Below, in pieces: positions 44,119-51,671 of a stretch of DNA of 64,000 nt (its first letter is position 1; every line of letters starts with the position of its first letter). The DNA is taken from assembly GCF_018860365.1 (NCBI RefSeq), contig NZ_JAHKPO010000003.1, forward strand, positions 558,001 to 622,000. Reading direction: 5' to 3'. Origin of the DNA: Arenibacter algicola. GTDB lineage: Bacteria; Bacteroidota; Bacteroidia; Flavobacteriales; Flavobacteriaceae. The notes beneath the pieces were generated by a model. That model did not search any database and was not told the origin of the DNA. It was given only the letters and a program-made list of their open reading frames with translations. A program made the position numbers and the translations under genes.

Positions 44119-44682
44119 CTACTGTTTGGCGTATATGGACTTGACGGTAACCTCTACCTCTTTTGCTATGTTGGTAGATGGTTTACCTCCGGAAAAAGTT
44201 ATACCGTAATCCGCCAAAACTATAGTCATTTTGGAGTCGAGGGTTACCTTTTCGCCTTCTACGGAAATGGTTGCTTTTTCATTTAAGACCTTTGTTTCGC
44301 CTTTGATGTCAAGGTTACCGGTTACAGTTGCTGTGTAGGTGCCATCTTTTGAAAAATCAATATCCCCCAGATTCCCTATTTTTCCCGTAAACTTAGCTTT
44401 TGGATGTTTTTTCGTATCCAGGAATTTATTGCTGTTAAAATGTTTTTGCATAAGCGCTTTTTCAAATTCGAAGCTCTGCATTGGCACCGAAAAGACGACG
44501 TCTCCAGTTGTTTTGTCAAGAGTACTTACTACCTTGTAGTTATTGGCCGTTATGTCCTCTAAAGCGGTATGTGAAAAGAAACTGATATGGCCATCCTTAC
44601 TCACTAATTTGTCTGCCAACGGCTTAAAGGCATACAATGATACAATTGCAAATACTACTGCTATTACTGATACTTTTTTCAT
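44119..44682 (-). CDS. YceI-family periplasmic lipid-binding protein
   Basis: The 187-residue protein has a signal-anchor (MKKVSVIAVVFAIVSLYAF), then the YceI lipocalin-like strand pattern (KDGHISFFSHTALEDITANN, DVVFSVPMQSFEFEKALMQK, HFNSNKFLDTKKHPKAKFTG). YceI proteins bind isoprenoid-like molecules in the periplasm, often under stress or acid control. It lies 28 bp after the OB-fold gene. Second gene of the presumed sigma-controlled operon. Confidence 0.94.
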   Translation of the reverse strand: MKKVSVIAVVFAIVSLYAFKPLADKLVSKDGHISFFSHTALEDITANNYKVVSTLDKTTGDVVFSVPMQSFEFEKALMQKHFNSNKFLDTKKHPKAKFTGKIGNLGDIDFSKDGTYTATVTGNLDIKGETKVLNEKATISVEGEKVTLDSKMTIVLADYGITFSGGKPSTNIAKEVEVTVKSIYAKQ

Positions 44683-44710: not shown

Positions 44711-45181
44711 CTATTTTGATACTAAATCACATTTTTCCAAAATAACATCTTCATATAGGTCCAGGTCTTCATCAAACCCGGCTCCTGACCTTATTACGCC
44801 TTTAACCTTTACAGTTTGGCCAATTTGTAGGTGTTCTGTGTTCTGGTTCGTTTCTGCTGTGAAGGTGCAACTCACTCCTGCCTTGTCCCCACTGTTTTTT
44901 AGCAGAATTACTTTTTGATTGTTCAGGTCTTCACTAATGGATACGACGGTTCCGGTAATGGCCAATATTTTGGAGTCCCCTTCTTCCTGCAAGTATTTCG
45001 CATTGGCCAAAGCGGCATCGGCCAGGTATTCATTTACAATATCGGTAGACGAAACACTGAAATCTGTTTTAGCTGATTGTACATCGCGTTTGGGCATGTT
45101 GAACATATAATATGCAACCGCAATGGCTATAACTAGTCCAACCCCTAATGTTAAGGATATAATTTTTATTGTTTTCTTCAT
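44711..45181 (-). CDS. Single-pass membrane OB-fold protein (tRNA_anti-like)
   Basis: Start set at the ATG at 45181 (MKKTIKIISLTLGVGLVIAI), giving ~156 residues; the longer frame would run through the promoter motif upstream. A membrane anchor at ~5-25 is followed by an OB-fold domain: KILAITGTVVSISEDLNNQK, GVSCTFTAETNQ, LQIGQTVKVKGVIRSGAG, and DLYEDVILEKCDLV. It matches the bacterial tRNA_anti-like/OB-fold lipoprotein group (PF12869-like). Its ligand is unknown. The ECF-type motif at 45208-45234 sits about 27 bp from the ATG. Confidence 0.82.
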   Translation of the reverse strand: MKKTIKIISLTLGVGLVIAIAVAYYMFNMPKRDVQSAKTDFSVSSTDIVNEYLADAALANAKYLQEEGDSKILAITGTVVSISEDLNNQKVILLKNSGDKAGVSCTFTAETNQNTEHLQIGQTVKVKGVIRSGAGFDEDLDLYEDVILEKCDLVSK

Positions 45182-45207
45182 GTTGTATTTAATTATTGTG
45201 AATGAAC

Positions 45208-45234
45208 AGACGGTCATTAAATTAATCCTGACAA
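45208..45234 (-). promoter_or_regulatory. ECF-type promoter motif TTGTCAGGA-N13-CGTCT (OB-fold/YceI operon)
   Basis: On the minus strand TTGTCAGGA (45234-45226), 13 bases, then CGTCT (45212-45208), 27 bp before the ATG of the OB-fold gene. The spacing between TGTCA and CGTC is 16 bp, as in typical ECF -35/-10 pairs. The same two blocks with identical spacing occur three more times in the following 2.3 kb. The neighbouring ECF sigma gene is the obvious candidate to recognise it (inference). Confidence 0.72.
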
Positions 45235-45434
45235 GCATTCCAAATAATTTTAATTTAATCACTGATTCAATACCTAAGATATTGTCCTCAAGTACCTTGG
45301 TTAATAAGGAATTTTACAGACTCTGTAAGGGAAAGTATTATTTGGAGTCCAATTGTTTGAGGTATTGGCCGAATAGTTAACCAATATTTTACTTTATACT
45401 GCTATGGATAGTTTCATCAATTAATATTTTTAAG

Positions 45435-46016
45435 ATGCCAGATGTTAGCGAAACAAATAAAACAATGGAGAACTGGTTCAATCTCTATTCCGATGCCTTG
45501 TTCGGCTGGGCTTATCATAAAACATCTTCAAAAGAAGTAGCAGAAGACTTGGTGCAGGAAACGTTTTTGTCGGCGGTTAAAGGTTTCAAAAATTTCAAGC
45601 ACAATAGTCAGCCCAAGACCTGGCTTTTTGCCATACTAAATAATAAATTAATAGACCATTATCGAAAAAAGGCCAAATCCGCTACCAAAGCAAATAAGGG
45701 TGCAGAATTGAAGTTCATAAACCAAACCAACTCTTTTTTTGATTCCCATGACAATTGGTTACCTTCAGCTAAGGAGGTGGCATGGGAAGAAGAAGTTCAT
45801 CTTCTGGACGACGAGGAATTTAAAGGAATAATGGAAAATTGTGTAGGCAATTTACCCGATAAGTGGCAGTTGGCCATAGTTTCCAAGTATCTTTCGGATA
45901 AAAGTGCGGATCAAATATGTCAGGAAATGAAGGTAACACAGTCCAATTATTGGCAGATCGTGCACCGCGCGAAATTAATGCTTAAAAAATGTATAGACTC
46001 CAATTGGATTCGTTAA
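45435..46016 (+). CDS. ECF sigma factor with zinc-binding anti-sigma partner
   Basis: The 193-residue protein has sigma region 2 (YSDALFGWAYHKTSSKEVAE, then DLVQETFLSAVKGFKNFKHN), the segment PKTWLFAILNNKLIDHYRKK, and region 4 (VGNLPDKWQLAIVSKYLSDK, then QICQEMKVTQSNYWQIVHRA). The ATG at 45435 sits in an AT-rich leader. The next gene, 25 bp away, encodes a zinc-binding anti-sigma-like protein. It is divergent from the OB-fold/YceI operon whose promoter carries the ECF-type motif. Confidence 0.94.
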   Translation: MPDVSETNKTMENWFNLYSDALFGWAYHKTSSKEVAEDLVQETFLSAVKGFKNFKHNSQPKTWLFAILNNKLIDHYRKKAKSATKANKGAELKFINQTNSFFDSHDNWLPSAKEVAWEEEVHLLDDEEFKGIMENCVGNLPDKWQLAIVSKYLSDKSADQICQEMKVTQSNYWQIVHRAKLMLKKCIDSNWIR

Positions 46017-46041
46017 AACTTTTGGATTAAATAGAATTGCA

Positions 46042-46323
46042 ATGTATATAATCAGAAGAATTTTGGGTAGCGTAACTTTTTCCTGTAAGAGGATTACTGA
46101 AATGGTGGAATTAGAAGAAACTGCCAAATTATCTTTTACGGAAAGGTTAAAGTATAGAACGCACTTAGCCTTTTGTAAAACATGTCGATCATATGAAAAA
46201 CAATCCGCTTTGATAGGTCGGGCTCTTTCGCGATTGATGTCTTCGACCCCAAAAGATTCTGTATCCATGGACGATACGGCCAAGAAAAAAATCTTGGACA
46301 AAATAAAACGAAACGAAAACTAG
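46042..46323 (+). CDS. Zinc-binding anti-sigma factor (ZAS-like), soluble
   Basis: The 93-residue protein has the ZAS pattern C15 ... H41-x3-C45-x2-C48 (SCKRITEMVELEE, then YRTHLAFCKTCRSYEKQS). There is no membrane segment, so it would act as a soluble, redox- or zinc-responsive anti-sigma factor in the style of RsrA/ChrR. It overlaps the 3' end of the convergent DUF547 gene by 4 bp. The partner is the upstream sigma factor. Confidence 0.87.
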   Translation: MYIIRRILGSVTFSCKRITEMVELEETAKLSFTERLKYRTHLAFCKTCRSYEKQSALIGRALSRLMSSTPKDSVSMDDTAKKKILDKIKRNEN

Positions 46324-47126
46324 TCCTTTTCGTTTAGGCTCCAATCGTATTCCTTATATTTAATTCTTGCATCCGGTGCGATTATCACTGTGGTATATGG
46401 CTTTATGTATTGAAGAAGGTCCCCATCTAAAAAATCATTTTTGTACCATTTGAAGATACGGGATAAGTGCAACTCTTTTTTACCAATGTTGTTATTGTCC
46501 GAATTGATAAAACCATGGGCGGCTTCTTCCAATTGGTCGTCCAGTTTTTCTGGCAAATAAGCCTTGTTAAGCAATTTTGGACAGGAGCCCGAGGCACAGT
46601 TAATGGCAAAATGAATCCTTGGTTCGTTCATTTTTCGGAGGATACTGTGCTCCAATGCGCCTAGGGAGAGTTCTTTGTTGCCTATTTTTATAAACTCAGT
46701 TGTCCAGGCCCCATCAATTTCTTTTATACTCTTTACTGGATAATTCTGGATAATTAGATTTACTGTATGTGCATTATATAGATTAATGTAGTACGCTAAT
46801 TGTTCTTGTACGGACCAGTCATTGTTAGGGAGCTGTTTTGAAAGATATTCCAAGTAATTATTCAATTCGTCTTTTTCATTTATGAAGCCGTCGTAGTCCA
46901 CTTTACCATCCTCCTCCACATATTTATTGAGTAAAGAATGCCATTTGGAATGATCAATTTTGATAAAGGAAATTCCGGAAGCATTTGCCAGGTTGCCCTT
47001 TACGACTTTAGCGGGCAGTCCCTTTCCATTGAGTCCTGCCATGGATAGCAGCCCGAAGCGATTGTTTAAGTAGATTATTGCTACAAAAAAAAGTATGGCA
47101 CTGCTAACTAACAATATTTTTTTCAT
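46320..47126 (-). CDS. DUF547 domain-containing secreted protein
   Basis: The 268-residue protein has an N-terminal signal-anchor (MKKILLVSSAILFFVAIIYL), then the DUF547 domain: KWHSLLNKYVEEDGKVDYDG, QLAYYINLYNAHTVNLIIQN, EHSILRKMNEPRIHFAINCA and SGSCPKLLNKAYLPEKLDDQ. The HFAINCASGSCP motif is diagnostic. Biochemical function is unknown. It converges on the sigma/anti-sigma pair and has its own copy of the ECF-type motif 51 bp upstream. Confidence 0.92.
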   Translation of the reverse strand: MKKILLVSSAILFFVAIIYLNNRFGLLSMAGLNGKGLPAKVVKGNLANASGISFIKIDHSKWHSLLNKYVEEDGKVDYDGFINEKDELNNYLEYLSKQLPNNDWSVQEQLAYYINLYNAHTVNLIIQNYPVKSIKEIDGAWTTEFIKIGNKELSLGALEHSILRKMNEPRIHFAINCASGSCPKLLNKAYLPEKLDDQLEEAAHGFINSDNNNIGKKELHLSRIFKWYKNDFLDGDLLQYIKPYTTVIIAPDARIKYKEYDWSLNEKD

Positions 47127-47176
47127 GTTTTATTTTTTCAGAATAAGGTCGCACATGCGTTTGTATTCCCACTACT

Positions 47177-47203
47177 AGACGAAGAAATAAGTAATCCTGA
47201 CAA
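47177..47203 (-). promoter_or_regulatory. ECF-type promoter motif (DUF547)
   Basis: Minus-strand TTGTCAGGA (47203-47195), N13, CGTCT (47181-47177), 51 bp upstream of the DUF547 ATG. It shares TTGTCAGGATTA (12 bases) with the OB-fold promoter. Confidence 0.72.
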
Positions 47204-47242
47204 TTGCCATAATATTTAAAGGTTTGTTTTTTATTTATGAAT

Positions 47243-47269
47243 TTGTCAGGAAGTTGTTGGGCCACGTCT
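47243..47269 (+). promoter_or_regulatory. ECF-type promoter motif, copy 3
   Basis: Plus-strand TTGTCAGGA (47243-47251), N13, CGTCT (47265-47269). It faces right but has no gene directly downstream for ~415 bp, and a second motif lies in between. It could drive a small RNA or a long leader of the YjeF-N gene. Confidence 0.55.
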
Positions 47270-47508
47270 GTTTAGTAAACAAAGCCAAGAAGAGTATTAC
47301 GAATGTCTTAAACTGTATTCCAATCGTTTTTTTTTGTTGGTTTGAAAGACCTAGAAGTTTGGGATATCGATATAAACTTCACAAATTATTTCGATATTCC
47401 TCTTTTAGGCTCAACAAGGTGATTGGTAGTTTTAGTGAATTTTATTCTCTCCAGAAATATGGTCAATAACCGCCTGGGCCAAAATATTTAAAATATTATC
47501 CAAGAATA

Positions 47509-47535
47509 TTGTCAGGAAGATTCTTAGGCCCGTCT
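47509..47535 (+). promoter_or_regulatory. ECF-type promoter motif (YjeF-N / Rieske-GOGAT operon)
   Basis: Plus-strand TTGTCAGGA (47509-47517), N13, CGTCT (47531-47535), about 150 bp upstream of the YjeF-N ATG at 47686. Confidence 0.62.
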
Positions 47536-47685: not shown

Positions 47686-48432
47686 ATGAATACTTATATA
47701 AAGGGCAGCTACACCAATTTCTTAAAGATCAACACACCTCAAATGATTGAGGTAGACCGATTGATGACAGAAGAATATCATATTGAATTGATCCAGATGA
47801 TGGAAAATGCTGGCCGTTGTCTTGCCATTCTTGTCAAGGAACGATTTTTGGACGGGGACGTATCGGGAAAGAGTATAGTGGTTCTGGCCGGAACCGGTGG
47901 AAATGGGGGAGGAGCCTTGGTAGCGGCAAGACGCTTACACAATTGGGGAGCAAAGGTCAGGGTATTTACCACTGCCCCCTACGAACGATTTACTCCAATT
48001 CCCGCCCATCAATACACTATTTTAAAACGGATGGGTGTATCCATAGAATCGGAAACTGGGATGGACAAGCTTATCAAGCCCGATGCCATTCTTGACGGGA
48101 TAATTGGATATAGTTTAAAGGGAAATCCTCGTAGTTCGGCTGCTACTATGATACATTGGGCCAATAACCAAAATACTCCTATTGTGGCCTTGGATACACC
48201 ATCAGGACTGGATCTAAACCGTGGCACACTTTACGAACCTGCCATTCGGGCCTTGGCAACTTTGACTCTGGCTATGCCGAAAATGGGATTGTTTGCAAGT
48301 GATGCAAAAAGTGTGGTAGGTGAGTTATATGTTGGAGATATTAGTGTCCCACCTGAACTTTACCAAGAAGAAAGTCTTGGTTTGGAACCAACAAATATCT
48401 TTAGATATTCGGACATTATACGGATTAATTGA
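47686..48432 (+). CDS. YjeF N-terminal domain protein (NAD(P)H-hydrate epimerase-like)
   Basis: The 248-residue protein has the YjeF_N Rossmann-like fold: TPQMIEVDRLMTEEYHIELI, GTGGNGGGALVAARRLHNWG (nucleotide loop), DAILDGIIGYSLKGNPRSSA and ALDTPSGLDLNRG (active Asp region). It lacks the C-terminal dehydratase domain of the usual bifunctional Nnr protein, so it is a stand-alone epimerase-like protein. NADHX/NADPHX repair is the family reaction; the RG rather than TG after DLN and the divergent context leave substrate identity open. Confidence 0.85.
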   Translation: MNTYIKGSYTNFLKINTPQMIEVDRLMTEEYHIELIQMMENAGRCLAILVKERFLDGDVSGKSIVVLAGTGGNGGGALVAARRLHNWGAKVRVFTTAPYERFTPIPAHQYTILKRMGVSIESETGMDKLIKPDAILDGIIGYSLKGNPRSSAATMIHWANNQNTPIVALDTPSGLDLNRGTLYEPAIRALATLTLAMPKMGLFASDAKSVVGELYVGDISVPPELYQEESLGLEPTNIFRYSDIIRIN

Positions 48433-48540: not shown

Positions 48541-50154
48541 ATGAAAAAACCAATAGAAATTGCTCTCCTAGACGATTTAGAAAATAAAAAACCGGTCCAC
48601 GCATTGGTCAACGATCTTGATCTTGTCATTGTCAAATTTGATGATACTCTTTCAGTACTGTATGGCAGATGCCTCCACCGAGGAGCATTGATGGCCGACG
48701 GCCATATAGACGGTGATAACCTCATTTGTGGTGTTCATGGATGGGATTATCGTTATGATACCGGGGTTTCCGAGTACAATAACGAAGAGGTTTTACATAA
48801 ATTCACCACCAAAACCGATGGTGGAAAGCTGTATGTAGATGAAGCGGAAATTAATGCTTATTTGAGCAAAAATGCGCAGCCCTTCAAGCGGGACGAATAT
48901 TTGGGGGCTTATGCCGATACGCATCCCGAAGATACAGAACCTTACACAGGTTATATAAAGGAGCTTGCCAAAAACGGCCTAAAAAATTTGGGTCACCATG
49001 GGCCTTCCGCATCAATGGGAGTAGATAGAAATACCCTTCCTAAATGGAACGATATCCAATTCTTGCCGGCCCAATTGGCAAGCAGACCCCTGTTGGACGA
49101 AGAGAAGGTCGTCACCCGAACGGTCATCGGGCCCAACGCCAAGAAACCCTTGAGTCTCGCTATTCCACTATTCGTTAGCGATATGAGCTTTGGGGCACTT
49201 TCCCGTGAAGCAAAAATAGCCCTATCGAAGGGGGCTGAACTGGCAGGCACCGGTATTTGTTCTGGGGAAGGCGGTATGCTGCCCGAGGAACAAGCCAATA
49301 ACAACAACTATTTTTATGAGTTGGCATCGGCACAGTTTGGATTTTCTTGGGATAAATTGGATAATGTACAAGCTTTCCACTTTAAAGGCGGTCAAGGTGC
49401 CAAAACGGGCACAGGAGGCCATTTGCCAGGCACTAAAGTAAGTGCGGAAATCGCTGAAGTTAGAGGGTTGAAAGCAGGGGAAACGGCAATTTCTCCAGCT
49501 GCCTTTCCCAATTTCCATGGCGTGGAAGATTTTAAAGCTTTTGCTAAAAAGGTGCGGGAGCGAACGGGAGGCATTCCCATAGGATTCAAAATAGCGGCCA
49601 GCCATATCGAAAAGGATATCCAGTTCGCCCTTGATGTTGGCGTTGATTATATTATTCTTGATGGTCGTGGTGGCGGAACAGGTTCTGCCCCGACAATTTT
49701 ACGTGACAATATCAACGTGCCTACAATTCCGGCATTAGCGCGAGCCAGAAAATATTTGGATAAGGTCGGTGCCGACCATGTGACTTTGATTATTACCGGT
49801 GGACTCAGGGTCGCCGAGGATTTTGCCAAGGCCCTAATGTTAGGTGCCGACGCTATAGCCGTCTCTAACGCTGCTCTTCAGGCCATTGGATGTCTGGGCA
49901 TGCGTGCTTGTGGCAGCAACAATTGTCCGGTCGGCATCGCTACTCAAAAAGAGTCGCTTCGCAGTAGGTTGATAATCGATTCTTCTGCGAAGCAATTGCA
50001 AAATTTCTTTGATGCGACAAATGATCTCATTAAGGTAATCGCTCGGGCATGCGGTCATGACGATATTACAAAGTTCAATTTTGATGACCTATCGACATTC
50101 GATTATGATATGCATCGCTTAACTGGAATTAACTATGCGGGTATAACCCCTTAA
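48541..50154 (+). CDS. Rieske [2Fe-2S] – glutamate-synthase (FMN) domain fusion oxidoreductase
   Basis: The 537-residue protein has an N-terminal Rieske domain with C44-x-H46 and C63-x2-H66 (GRCLHRGALM ... LICGVHGWDY). The C-terminal ~400 residues are the glutamate-synthase central/FMN TIM-barrel domain: PLFVSDMSFGALSREAKIAL, GICSGEGGMLPEEQ, KGGQGAKTGTGGHLPG, DGRGGGTGSAPTILRD, LIITGGLRVAEDFAKALMLG. A 3Fe-4S cluster motif follows, C451-x5-C457-x4-C462 (GCLGMRACGSNNCPVG). It lacks the glutaminase and FAD/NADPH modules of GOGAT, so the Rieske domain probably delivers or accepts electrons. The reaction is unknown. Confidence 0.92.
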   Translation: MKKPIEIALLDDLENKKPVHALVNDLDLVIVKFDDTLSVLYGRCLHRGALMADGHIDGDNLICGVHGWDYRYDTGVSEYNNEEVLHKFTTKTDGGKLYVDEAEINAYLSKNAQPFKRDEYLGAYADTHPEDTEPYTGYIKELAKNGLKNLGHHGPSASMGVDRNTLPKWNDIQFLPAQLASRPLLDEEKVVTRTVIGPNAKKPLSLAIPLFVSDMSFGALSREAKIALSKGAELAGTGICSGEGGMLPEEQANNNNYFYELASAQFGFSWDKLDNVQAFHFKGGQGAKTGTGGHLPGTKVSAEIAEVRGLKAGETAISPAAFPNFHGVEDFKAFAKKVRERTGGIPIGFKIAASHIEKDIQFALDVGVDYIILDGRGGGTGSAPTILRDNINVPTIPALARARKYLDKVGADHVTLIITGGLRVAEDFAKALMLGADAIAVSNAALQAIGCLGMRACGSNNCPVGIATQKESLRSRLIIDSSAKQLQNFFDATNDLIKVIARACGHDDITKFNFDDLSTFDYDMHRLTGINYAGITP

Positions 50155-50165
50155 AAGAAATTATA

Positions 50166-50918
50166 ATGGAAAACATGATGCACTTGGCTGCACAGTACTT
50201 GGCCACGGCCGGAATTAGTTTTTTGGAAAAAAAGAAAGATGATAGCCATACCAACTTAGGGTTCGATGCCAATACCGGGTATTTGGAAACCTGGCCCTTA
50301 AATGATAACGGATTCAAAATTGCACTGGATTATGTACAATTTTCATTGCATTGGATAAGCAACGATACCACACGGATGACCATATACCTCGATGGAAAAT
50401 CGCATCGTGAAATTGTAAAATGGATAAAGGAGGTTACAAAGACATTGGGTGCGTCTAAAACCTATAGTTACAAACTTCATTATGAACTGCCCTACGGTAA
50501 GATGACCGATGATTTTGTATTTTCAAAACCTCTGCAAGATGACTTGGACAAGATGCTGGGTTATCGAAAAATTGCCCAACGCGCCCTAGAAAGCGTAGTC
50601 AATAAAATGATGCTGAGTACAACTATTCGCGTATGGCCCCATCATTTTGATACAGGGGGCTACGAAATTATTGGCACTAGTAATCCGATTGGAGTAGGTT
50701 TTGGAATGGCCATTCCTGATTCTATCATAGATGACTTTTATCTGTACACCTCCGGTTATAAAGGGCATGAAAGTATTGATACCAGTGAATTTGATGCGAT
50801 TACTTACGGCGACTGGATGAATGAAGATTTTAAGGGGGCAGTGCTACCCATGAAAAATGTCGACGAAGCAATGGCTATTACTTTTTTTAATGAAAGTATC
50901 AGTAAAATAGTTCAGTAA
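50166..50918 (+). CDS. DUF5996-like hypothetical protein
   Basis: The 250-residue protein starts 11 bp after the Rieske-GOGAT gene. It has no signal peptide. Segments such as DYVQFSLHWISNDTTRMTIY, IRVWPHHFDTGGYEIIG and GVGFGMAIPDSIIDDFYLYT recall DUF5996, whose members carry a WPxHFD motif, but I hold the family call as tentative. Close spacing makes it a likely functional partner of the oxidoreductase. Confidence 0.72.
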   Translation: MENMMHLAAQYLATAGISFLEKKKDDSHTNLGFDANTGYLETWPLNDNGFKIALDYVQFSLHWISNDTTRMTIYLDGKSHREIVKWIKEVTKTLGASKTYSYKLHYELPYGKMTDDFVFSKPLQDDLDKMLGYRKIAQRALESVVNKMMLSTTIRVWPHHFDTGGYEIIGTSNPIGVGFGMAIPDSIIDDFYLYTSGYKGHESIDTSEFDAITYGDWMNEDFKGAVLPMKNVDEAMAITFFNESISKIVQ

Positions 50919-51020: not shown

Positions 51021-51671
51021 ATGGACGAATCACAAAAAGAGACCAAGAAAATAAACAAAGTAATAGACCATCAACTAATGGAAGAACTTGGCATTGATAA
51101 AAATAGGCTCAAGGAACTTAAAAAGAAACTGGCAAAAGTAGAACCAAGATCTGAGCGTGGGGCCGAAACACTCTTCCGGTTGGTGTCCAAAAATCATTAT
51201 ACGTTGAATACCATGATCGACCGAAAATCTCATATTCTAATAACCATAAATGCCTTGATTCTTTCCATAATTATAGGTACCGTAATGCAGCAATTGGACA
51301 AGGATCCACATTTAATTTTCCCTGCGGTTATGATGCTTCTTACTAATTTAATATCTATAACTTTTGCCGTTTTGGCCACACGACCAGAACTCACGCATGG
51401 CAATACAAAAGTTGCCAATTTATTGTATTTCGGTAATTTTCACGGTATGGAGGAAAAGGAATATTCCGACCAACTGACCAATTTAATTTATAAAGGGGAC
51501 GACCTCTATAAATCAATAGCTTTGGATACTTTTTATCTTGGGAAATCAATTGATAGAAAACACAGGCTTTTGCGAAAATCTTTTGATGTTTTTTTAATAG
51601 GTATAATCCTTTCGGTTATCGGGTTTATTATTTGCCACTTGTTTTTTGGCAGTATGTTTCAACCATCGTGA
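51021..51671 (+). CDS. PycTM/DUF5706-like membrane protein (Pycsar effector-type), orphan
   Basis: The 216-residue protein has a charged N-terminus (~1-50) and then the PycTM-like core: ETLFRLVSKNHYTLNTMIDR, KSHILITINALILSIIIGTV (membrane segment 1), a second segment MMLLTNLISITFAVLATRP, and a C-terminal segment LIGIILSVIGFIICHLFF. Related proteins are membrane-damaging effectors of Pycsar anti-phage systems, normally next to a uridylate/cytidylate cyclase. No cyclase or HD domain is seen nearby. It could be an orphan effector or a family member with a housekeeping role. Confidence 0.72.
   Translation: MDESQKETKKINKVIDHQLMEELGIDKNRLKELKKKLAKVEPRSERGAETLFRLVSKNHYTLNTMIDRKSHILITINALILSIIIGTVMQQLDKDPHLIFPAVMMLLTNLISITFAVLATRPELTHGNTKVANLLYFGNFHGMEEKEYSDQLTNLIYKGDDLYKSIALDTFYLGKSIDRKHRLLRKSFDVFLIGIILSVIGFIICHLFFGSMFQPS

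Follow-up and report, generated by a model that had tools for sequence, protein, structure and literature searches.

How is a small regulon wired when a single gene pair, encoding an extracytoplasmic function (ECF) sigma factor and its anti-sigma factor, lies amid four copies of the same promoter-like motif? The question is raised by a stretch of 64,000 nucleotides from Arenibacter algicola (contig NZ_JAHKPO010000003.1, positions 558,001 to 622,000; hereafter called the window, with coordinates counted from its first letter), in which TTGTCAGGA-N13-CGTCT occurs in exactly four exact copies, all within 2.3 kb of one such pair. These copies (P1 to P4) are very probably promoters that are read by the local sigma factor, as judged from sequence comparisons among relatives. 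The explanation as a whole, in which we place considerable confidence, is that a sigma factor held by a zinc-binding anti-sigma (ZAS) factor reads P1 to P4 and thereby controls a local regulon, and that in the wider sigma family a further copy of the promoter, located inside the sigma gene, drives the anti-sigma gene.

The four copies reported by the initial annotation were recovered at 45208..45234 (P1, minus strand), 47177..47203 (P2, minus strand), 47243..47269 (P3, plus strand), and 47509..47535 (P4, plus strand). When up to two mismatches were allowed, the same four sites were the only ones found in the window, versus 0.10 expected from shuffled sequences. A scan of the complete genome (5,746,756 bases), as had been proposed, returned the exact motif at these four positions and nowhere else. 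With up to two mismatches, the genome yielded 28 matches versus 31 for the reversed control pattern, so that this consensus reveals no regulon across the genome, and one of dozens of genes is unsupported. At all four sites the distance from TGTCA to CGTC is 16 bp, as had been noted, which supports the reading as an ECF −35/−10 pair. The core boxes GTCAGGA and CGTCT are present throughout, the extended −35 element is GTCAGGATT at P1 and P2 and GTCAGGAAG at P3 and P4, and the bases directly 3' of CGTCT are GTT, AGT, GTT, and ATT (P1 to P4). All sites are intergenic between recognized genes and each is oriented toward a gene, although mechanically called open reading frames (ORFs) do overlap P1 (44711-45262, with a GTG start, and 45123-45380) and P3 (47224-47469, with a TTG start).

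The genes faced by these sites are the predicted targets, and their families, as initially named, were confirmed by Pfam matches. P1 lies upstream of a run on the minus strand that encodes an OB-fold (tRNA_anti-like) protein (44711..45181, PF12869) and a YceI-like protein (44119..44682, PF04264), with 26 nt between CGTCT and the OB-fold ATG at 45181. P2 precedes the gene of a DUF547 protein (46320..47126, minus strand, PF04784) by 50 nt (ATG at 47126) and forms a divergent pair with P3, with 39 bp between them. P3 and P4 both face a YjeF-N gene (NAD(P)H-hydrate epimerase-like; 47686..48432, plus strand, PF03853, with TIGR00197 above its cut-off), whose ATG at 47686 is 416 nt from P3 and 150 nt from P4. 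It is followed on the same strand by the gene of a Rieske and glutamate-synthase-like (FMN) protein, hereafter Rieske-GOGAT (48541..50154, PF00355 and PF01645). From the likeness of their spacers, P4 is possibly a local duplication of P3.

The sigma gene (45435..46016, plus strand) encodes 193 amino acids with a Sigma70_r2 match of 59 bits, a Sigma70_r4_2 match slightly below the cut-off (24.1 versus 25.7 bits), and a resemblance to TIGR02943 that is likewise below its cut-off (122.4 versus 162.2 bits). Its domain matches comprise region 2, region 4, and PhyR_sigma2 only, with no fused C-terminal regulatory domain found, and a sequence search of the PDB returned distant ECFs only. The anti-sigma gene (46042..46323, plus strand, 93 amino acids) starts 25 nt 3' of the sigma gene. 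The sequence of its product reads C15-X25-H41-X3-C45-X2-C48, which fits the published ZAS motif C/H-X23-26-H-X3-C-X2-C (PMC7907618) and supports the zinc-type pair amid the sites that had been described; NF052368 (antisigmaE) scores 46 bits, below its cut-off of 50, and the PDB sequence search gave zero matches for this protein. No copy of the motif was found upstream of the window sigma gene, again as initially reported.

The motif and the sigma factor occur together among relatives (genomes, contigs, and loci are coded G, C, and L, the window genome being G000). Within the genus (18 species), the window sigma factor is present only in the window species and in G400 (94% identical), and a paralogue with 34-39% identity is present in all 18 congeners. 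Rieske-GOGAT (E <= 1e-100) is found in the same 2 of the 18 species, which makes the cluster look like an accessory island. In a sample of 397 genomes of the family, where homologue counts are lower bounds, at least 7 genomes carry a sigma match at E <= 1e-38: in G000, G120, G225, and G289 the identity is 59% or higher, and in three others it is 35-38%. The exact motif occurs in 9 of the 397, versus a single match for the reversed control, with four copies in G000, two in G289, one in G225, and one in each of six others. When TTGTCAGG-N14-CGTCTRTT was searched in the five sigma-bearing genomes (G000, G400, G225, G289, and G120), the 15 matches with no more than one mismatch were all situated either some 10 kb or less from the sigma gene or in a cluster on G289:C49 that holds genes of the same kind as the window targets; at two mismatches, 16 of the 18 matches lay elsewhere (control total 21). 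The 16 congeners without the sigma gene gave no exact matches and 17 one-mismatch matches versus 17 for the control. In each of the four sigma-bearing relatives the motif stands upstream of at least one of the same genes. It precedes the OB-fold/YceI genes in G400, G289:C6, and G120 and DUF547 in G400, G225, and G289:C49; before YjeF-N it is kept in G400 with CGACT in place of CGTCT at P3, and P4 lies in sequence that is absent from this genome. G289 also has another sigma gene copy, which is interrupted (L213 on G289:C44, 9824-10237); no motif or anti-sigma match was found in 20 kb around it.

The association extends to more distant homologues. We considered the best 80 of 510 confirmed loci, which were collected by peptide patterns of sigma region 2, so that the codons of region 4 are unselected; the ORF calls at these loci come from a crude, ATG-based procedure. 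In noncoding DNA, a fuzzy scan returned 62 matches versus 10 in the control at a gap of 15, 14 versus 4 at 14, 7 versus 9 at 13, and 14 versus 4 at 12, where 7 of the 14 are second readings of gap-15 matches. The stricter pattern TGT[CA]AGG[AT]...[CA]G[TA]CTA with one mismatch yielded 51 noncoding matches at 41 loci versus none at a gap of 15, and 8 matches at 6 loci versus one at a gap of 14. The enrichment upstream of genes that the initial annotation had called for is evident here: 54 of these 59 matches lie at most 300 bp upstream of a co-directional ORF, and for about 40 of the 54 the distance is 18-55 nt. Furthermore, 29 of the 59 are on the sigma strand and within 1.5 kb after the sigma start, and merely 2 lie within 400 bp upstream of the sigma gene. 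Most relatives thus use 17-bp spacing, often with CGACT, whereas the window lineage uses 16 bp with CGTCT, and a motif-free region upstream of the sigma gene is the rule in the homologue loci.

Where, then, might the sigma factor act on its own gene pair? In most of 75 tested sigma genes (84 loci were entered, of which 9 failed alignment) an in-frame copy of the promoter, overlooked by the initial annotation, is found in the codons of the region-4 helix-turn-helix, upstream of the anti-sigma gene, and 51 of 56 coding matches in the homologue loci fall at this position. Compared with the codon usage of other ORFs at the same loci, the codons forming the boxes are strongly preferred: TGT in 61 of 68 cases (37.1 expected), CAG in 34 of 34 (12.9), AAG in 26 of 28 (9.5) at genes where Lys replaces Gln, xCG ahead of the Ser/Thr codon in 44 of 57 (10.6), TCT in 25 of 41 (7.8), and ACT in 15 of 27 (5.5). 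At 22 other Pro/Thr/Ala/Ser positions of the gene, z reached at most 2.1, versus 11.8 at the motif; because z was as high as 4.2 and 4.0 at other Gln positions and 2.7 at one Lys position, CAG or AAG by itself does not constitute proof. Weight matrices built from 62 intergenic sites only were then scored against synonymous resampling, in which 55 of the 75 genes gave p <= 0.05 and 25 reached 0.005 (Stouffer z 17.6). Because the choice of codons is itself constrained, the intragenic matches are not an artefact of the peptide C-Q-E...S-N, an explanation that is ruled out by the codon-usage tests.

Two further groups of genes show the same constraint. Throughout the 18 congeners, the paralogue has invariant motif codons, the five being TGT AAG GAG ... 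CCG TCT, and most of the intervening and flanking codons vary. Of 113 columns with a conserved amino acid, 9 show one codon only, and the motif codons account for 5 of these 9, a coincidence with a calculated chance of about 1e-6 if relatedness is ignored. In the order of Nitrosomonas, 124 genomes have a match; 30 loci (L216, L247-L275) were scanned and 26 parsed. These homologues, with a G+C content of up to 66%, have TGT in 22 of 23 cases (5.9 expected), AAG in 21 of 21 (10.5), xCG in 24 of 25 (7.8), ACT or ACC in 21 of 24 (15.0), CAG in 4 of 4 (2.6), and AAT in 13 of 26 (10.9). Synonymous sites should be near saturation at such distances, though the sequences are not independent. For this large ECF family of Bacteroidota and Nitrosomonas-order proteobacteria it is probable that a dual-coded promoter in the region-4 codons drives the anti-sigma gene and constrains the protein, with the alternatives TGTC/TGTA and CGTC/CGAC appearing as Gln/Lys and Ser/Thr changes, respectively.

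Natural variation in gene order bears on this proposal. At 70 of the 75 loci a ZAS anti-sigma gene is found no more than 800 nt from the start of the sigma gene, and the median intragenic score there is 21; the five loci without an adjacent anti-sigma gene have a median of −17.6 (L064 scores 16.1 and the other four are negative; Mann-Whitney p 0.0017). The loci L067 and L069, sisters on the tree, have a different gene downstream of the sigma gene, with an intergenic copy in front of it, and have lost the intragenic copy; L084 and L111, the two loci with the motif upstream of the sigma gene, have no intragenic copy. The TGTC/TGTA and CGTCT/CGACT variants of the intragenic copy also tend to match those of the intergenic copies, with 38 concordant and 4 discordant loci for the −35 base and 36 and 10 for the −10 base (Fisher p about 1e-7 and 4e-7, relatedness ignored). 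On the tree these correspond to 5 changes (−35) and 7-8 changes (−10), and agreement prevails among the supported independent pairs, whose number is too small for a sign test. Covariation was therefore dropped as proof and kept as suggestive. An alternative is that the intragenic copy is no promoter of the anti-sigma gene and that its codons are kept for translation pausing, RNA structure, or a 3'-derived small RNA, the last in line with the ability of such promoters to produce small RNAs as well. As the bases that are kept form the −35 and −10 boxes, spaced as elsewhere in the family, with varying codons in the spacer, and as the variants tend to follow the intergenic copies, with exceptions, we regard this alternative as unlikely.

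Several observations weigh against our explanation. Six of the nine family genomes with the exact motif have a single copy and no sigma gene among the matches listed, and P3 is 416 nt away from its gene. Of the sigma genes, 20 of 75 fail p 0.05 in synonymous resampling, 7 of the 70 with an adjacent anti-sigma gene have no recognizable copy (score below 0), and the covariation rests on few independent changes and has exceptions. In the window itself, the intragenic copy (codons 162-171, 45918..45947, plus strand) reads TGTCAGG-N15-AGTCC, with a degenerate −10 box and 17-bp spacing, whereas the spacing at its targets is 16 bp. Its resampling p is 0.036, compared with 0.004 in G289 and 0.005 in G225, and the copy of the window gene may be weak or decaying.

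If the sites act as proposed, the small, zinc-binding anti-sigma would keep the sigma factor inactive until it is released, most likely by oxidant or thiol-reactive stress, upon which the free sigma factor would turn on the OB-fold/YceI, DUF547, and YjeF-N/Rieske-GOGAT genes. The sigma gene, which lacks such a promoter upstream, is probably expressed from another one. In the family, the copy in the region-4 codons most likely drives the anti-sigma gene directly downstream. Since a sigma-dependent promoter about 50-100 nt before the inhibitor gene would raise the inhibitor and not the sigma factor, sigma activity would induce its own inhibitor, giving negative feedback without self-amplification. 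What the sequences show are the sites, their placement, their conservation alongside the sigma gene, and the codon constraint, from which transcription at the sites, the signal, and the feedback are inferred.

The closest published parallel in promoter sequence is sigma-E of Neisseria, whose consensus, described in 2010, is GTMAGBWTT, 12-13 nt, and CGTCTAAH, followed six nt downstream by a conserved A that coincides with the mapped start (PMC2893595). The Neisseria meningitidis sigma-E/MseR system shares with the window the types of boxes, a ZAS anti-sigma directly downstream, and a very small regulon (PMC2893595, PMC3240639). The neisserial cores are present at the window sites, but the last TT of the −35 box is missing at P3 and P4, the AAH end is not exact, and the spacer measures 11 nt (12 in most relatives). 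Unlike in the window, the neisserial rpoE operon is autoregulated, with its own operon and msrAB as targets (PMC2893595, PMC3240639), and the published account that we drew on saw no response of meningococcal sigma-E to H2O2, diamide, or singlet oxygen (PMC2893595). The likeness described here is one of promoter boxes and of the ZAS motif. RpoE2/HrsE of Haemophilus influenzae likewise has a small cytoplasmic ZAS anti-sigma, targets neighbouring genes, and shows very limited self-induction, but its targets are msrAB and dmt, and the published account that we drew on gave no promoter motif (PMC7907618). The circuit predicted here is that of SigH/RshA in Corynebacterium glutamicum, where sigH is transcribed from housekeeping promoters and the anti-sigma gene alone is transcribed from a SigH-dependent promoter inside sigH, with different boxes (GGAATA/GTT type) and, in the account that we drew on, no mention of codon-level conservation across phyla (PMC3489674). 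For RpoE6/EcfR6 of Sinorhizobium meliloti (ECF26), a sigma-dependent promoter for the anti-sigma gene inside the sigma ORF has been suggested, for a single gene of a different ECF group (PMC6180224). The initial annotation had compared the sites with the TGTCA...CGTC promoters of some ECF groups, a type represented by ECF41, where the cores are also about 16 bp apart. This likeness is superficial, because the −35 box of ECF41 is TGTCACA and the ECF41 protein is fused to a regulatory domain at its C-terminus (PMC3426412), whereas all four window sites have TGTCAGG and the 193-residue sigma factor lacks such a domain, which rules out the assignment.

An alternative for the four sites is that they are operators for a repressor or activator common to the cluster and not sigma promoters. 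A bipartite motif could bind a dimer, but the half-sites are non-palindromic, the spacing of 16 or 17 bp is that of ECF −35/−10 pairs, the sites face genes with leaders of mostly about 20-55 nt and co-occur with the sigma gene, and the consensus equals a published ECF promoter (PMC2893595), which together make operators very improbable. Of the initial claim of an undescribed regulon, the local regulon is supported, and neither it nor its genes in Bacteroidota were found described in the literature searched, in which the group motifs of the main ECF classification were left uncompared; its promoter type, in turn, matches the published neisserial one (PMC2893595).

Promoter sites read by the local sigma factor would offer a promoter code that can be tested in an ECF family of Bacteroidota, a phylum where, according to one paper, class I anti-sigmas adjoin only 6% of the ECFs (PMC7406223). 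ECF promoter prediction, according to a review, leans on known pairs and autoregulated ECFs (PMC8103513), and in this family prediction from autoregulation would fail, because the motif is found within the sigma gene and downstream of it and seldom upstream. If the dual-coding proposal is true, different phyla have preserved a promoter within a protein-coding sequence, and this promoter may have helped to shape the DNA-binding domain of the protein by which it is itself recognized.

It is very improbable that the motif is read by a different sigma factor, for example the paralogue on contig 28, with the local one a bystander: the paralogue does contain a similar intragenic motif (TGTAAGG...CGTCTAA) in all 18 congeners, but the 16 congeners that have only the paralogue lack exact TTGTCAGGA-N13-CGTCT and Rieske-GOGAT tracks the local sigma factor. 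The paralogue gene (G000:C28:287747-288274; L138, L173, and L121-L137) is followed by a ZAS anti-sigma gene in 17 of the 18 congeners, according to a quick check. Exact TGTAAGG-N15-CGTCTAA occurs once per congener genome, inside the paralogue gene, and no paralogue regulon was seen in the genus with this pattern (37 one-mismatch matches versus 36 for the control). A near-identical one-mismatch site, TGTAAGGAAAAGGnnAAATAATTGTCTAA, is present in 6 of the 18 congeners (G397:C28, G373:C1, G401:C43, G404:C17, G405:C33, and G409:C23) and may be a paralogue target.

Turning to the local sigma factor and its family, the motif also precedes an uncharacterized gene followed by a DUF3179 gene in G400 and G289 (the former DUF3179 by likeness of the sequence start), a DUF6789 gene in G289, and, as TGTCATGA, the gene of an AhpD-like CMD protein in G225. 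In the wider set, 120 downstream genes were listed and 108 scanned for families, the other 12 being sigma or anti-sigma genes, doubtful ORFs, matches mostly outside Bacteroidota, and one L212 gene. Among the best 25 of 77 families, the commonest are OB-fold, YceI, and DUF6789 (7 each), DUF547 and cytochrome P460 (6 each), DUF3179, glycosyltransferase 2, and the Por secretion tail (5 each), and MbnB/TglH/ChrH, CMD, Redoxin, and YHS (4 each). The family names would suggest envelope and redox or thiophilic-metal stress as a common theme.

In G225, the AhpD-like target is followed by genes for an ArsR-type regulator, a MerTP-type transporter, and a pyridine-nucleotide oxidoreductase (L139, 1566-4591), hinting at thiophilic-metal stress. 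Family-2 glycosyltransferase genes lie 3' of DUF547 in L140 (by Pfam) and in L139 and L172 (by likeness of the sequence start), which is not so in the window; the L139 gene (398-1096) scores above the cut-off of TIGR04283, named arsenosugar biosynthesis glycosyltransferase. DUF6789-like gene starts (L046, L047, L061, L063, and L067) recur as predicted targets near sigma/anti-sigma pairs of Bacteroidota. Downstream of Rieske-GOGAT in the window, a conserved gene without a Pfam match (50166..50918, plus strand), which also stands beside Rieske-GOGAT in G289:C49, is possibly part of the same transcript. It is followed by the gene of a PycTM (Pycsar effector-like) membrane protein (51021-51671), which is kept downstream of Rieske-GOGAT in G289:C49 (L140, 102-629) with 75% identity.

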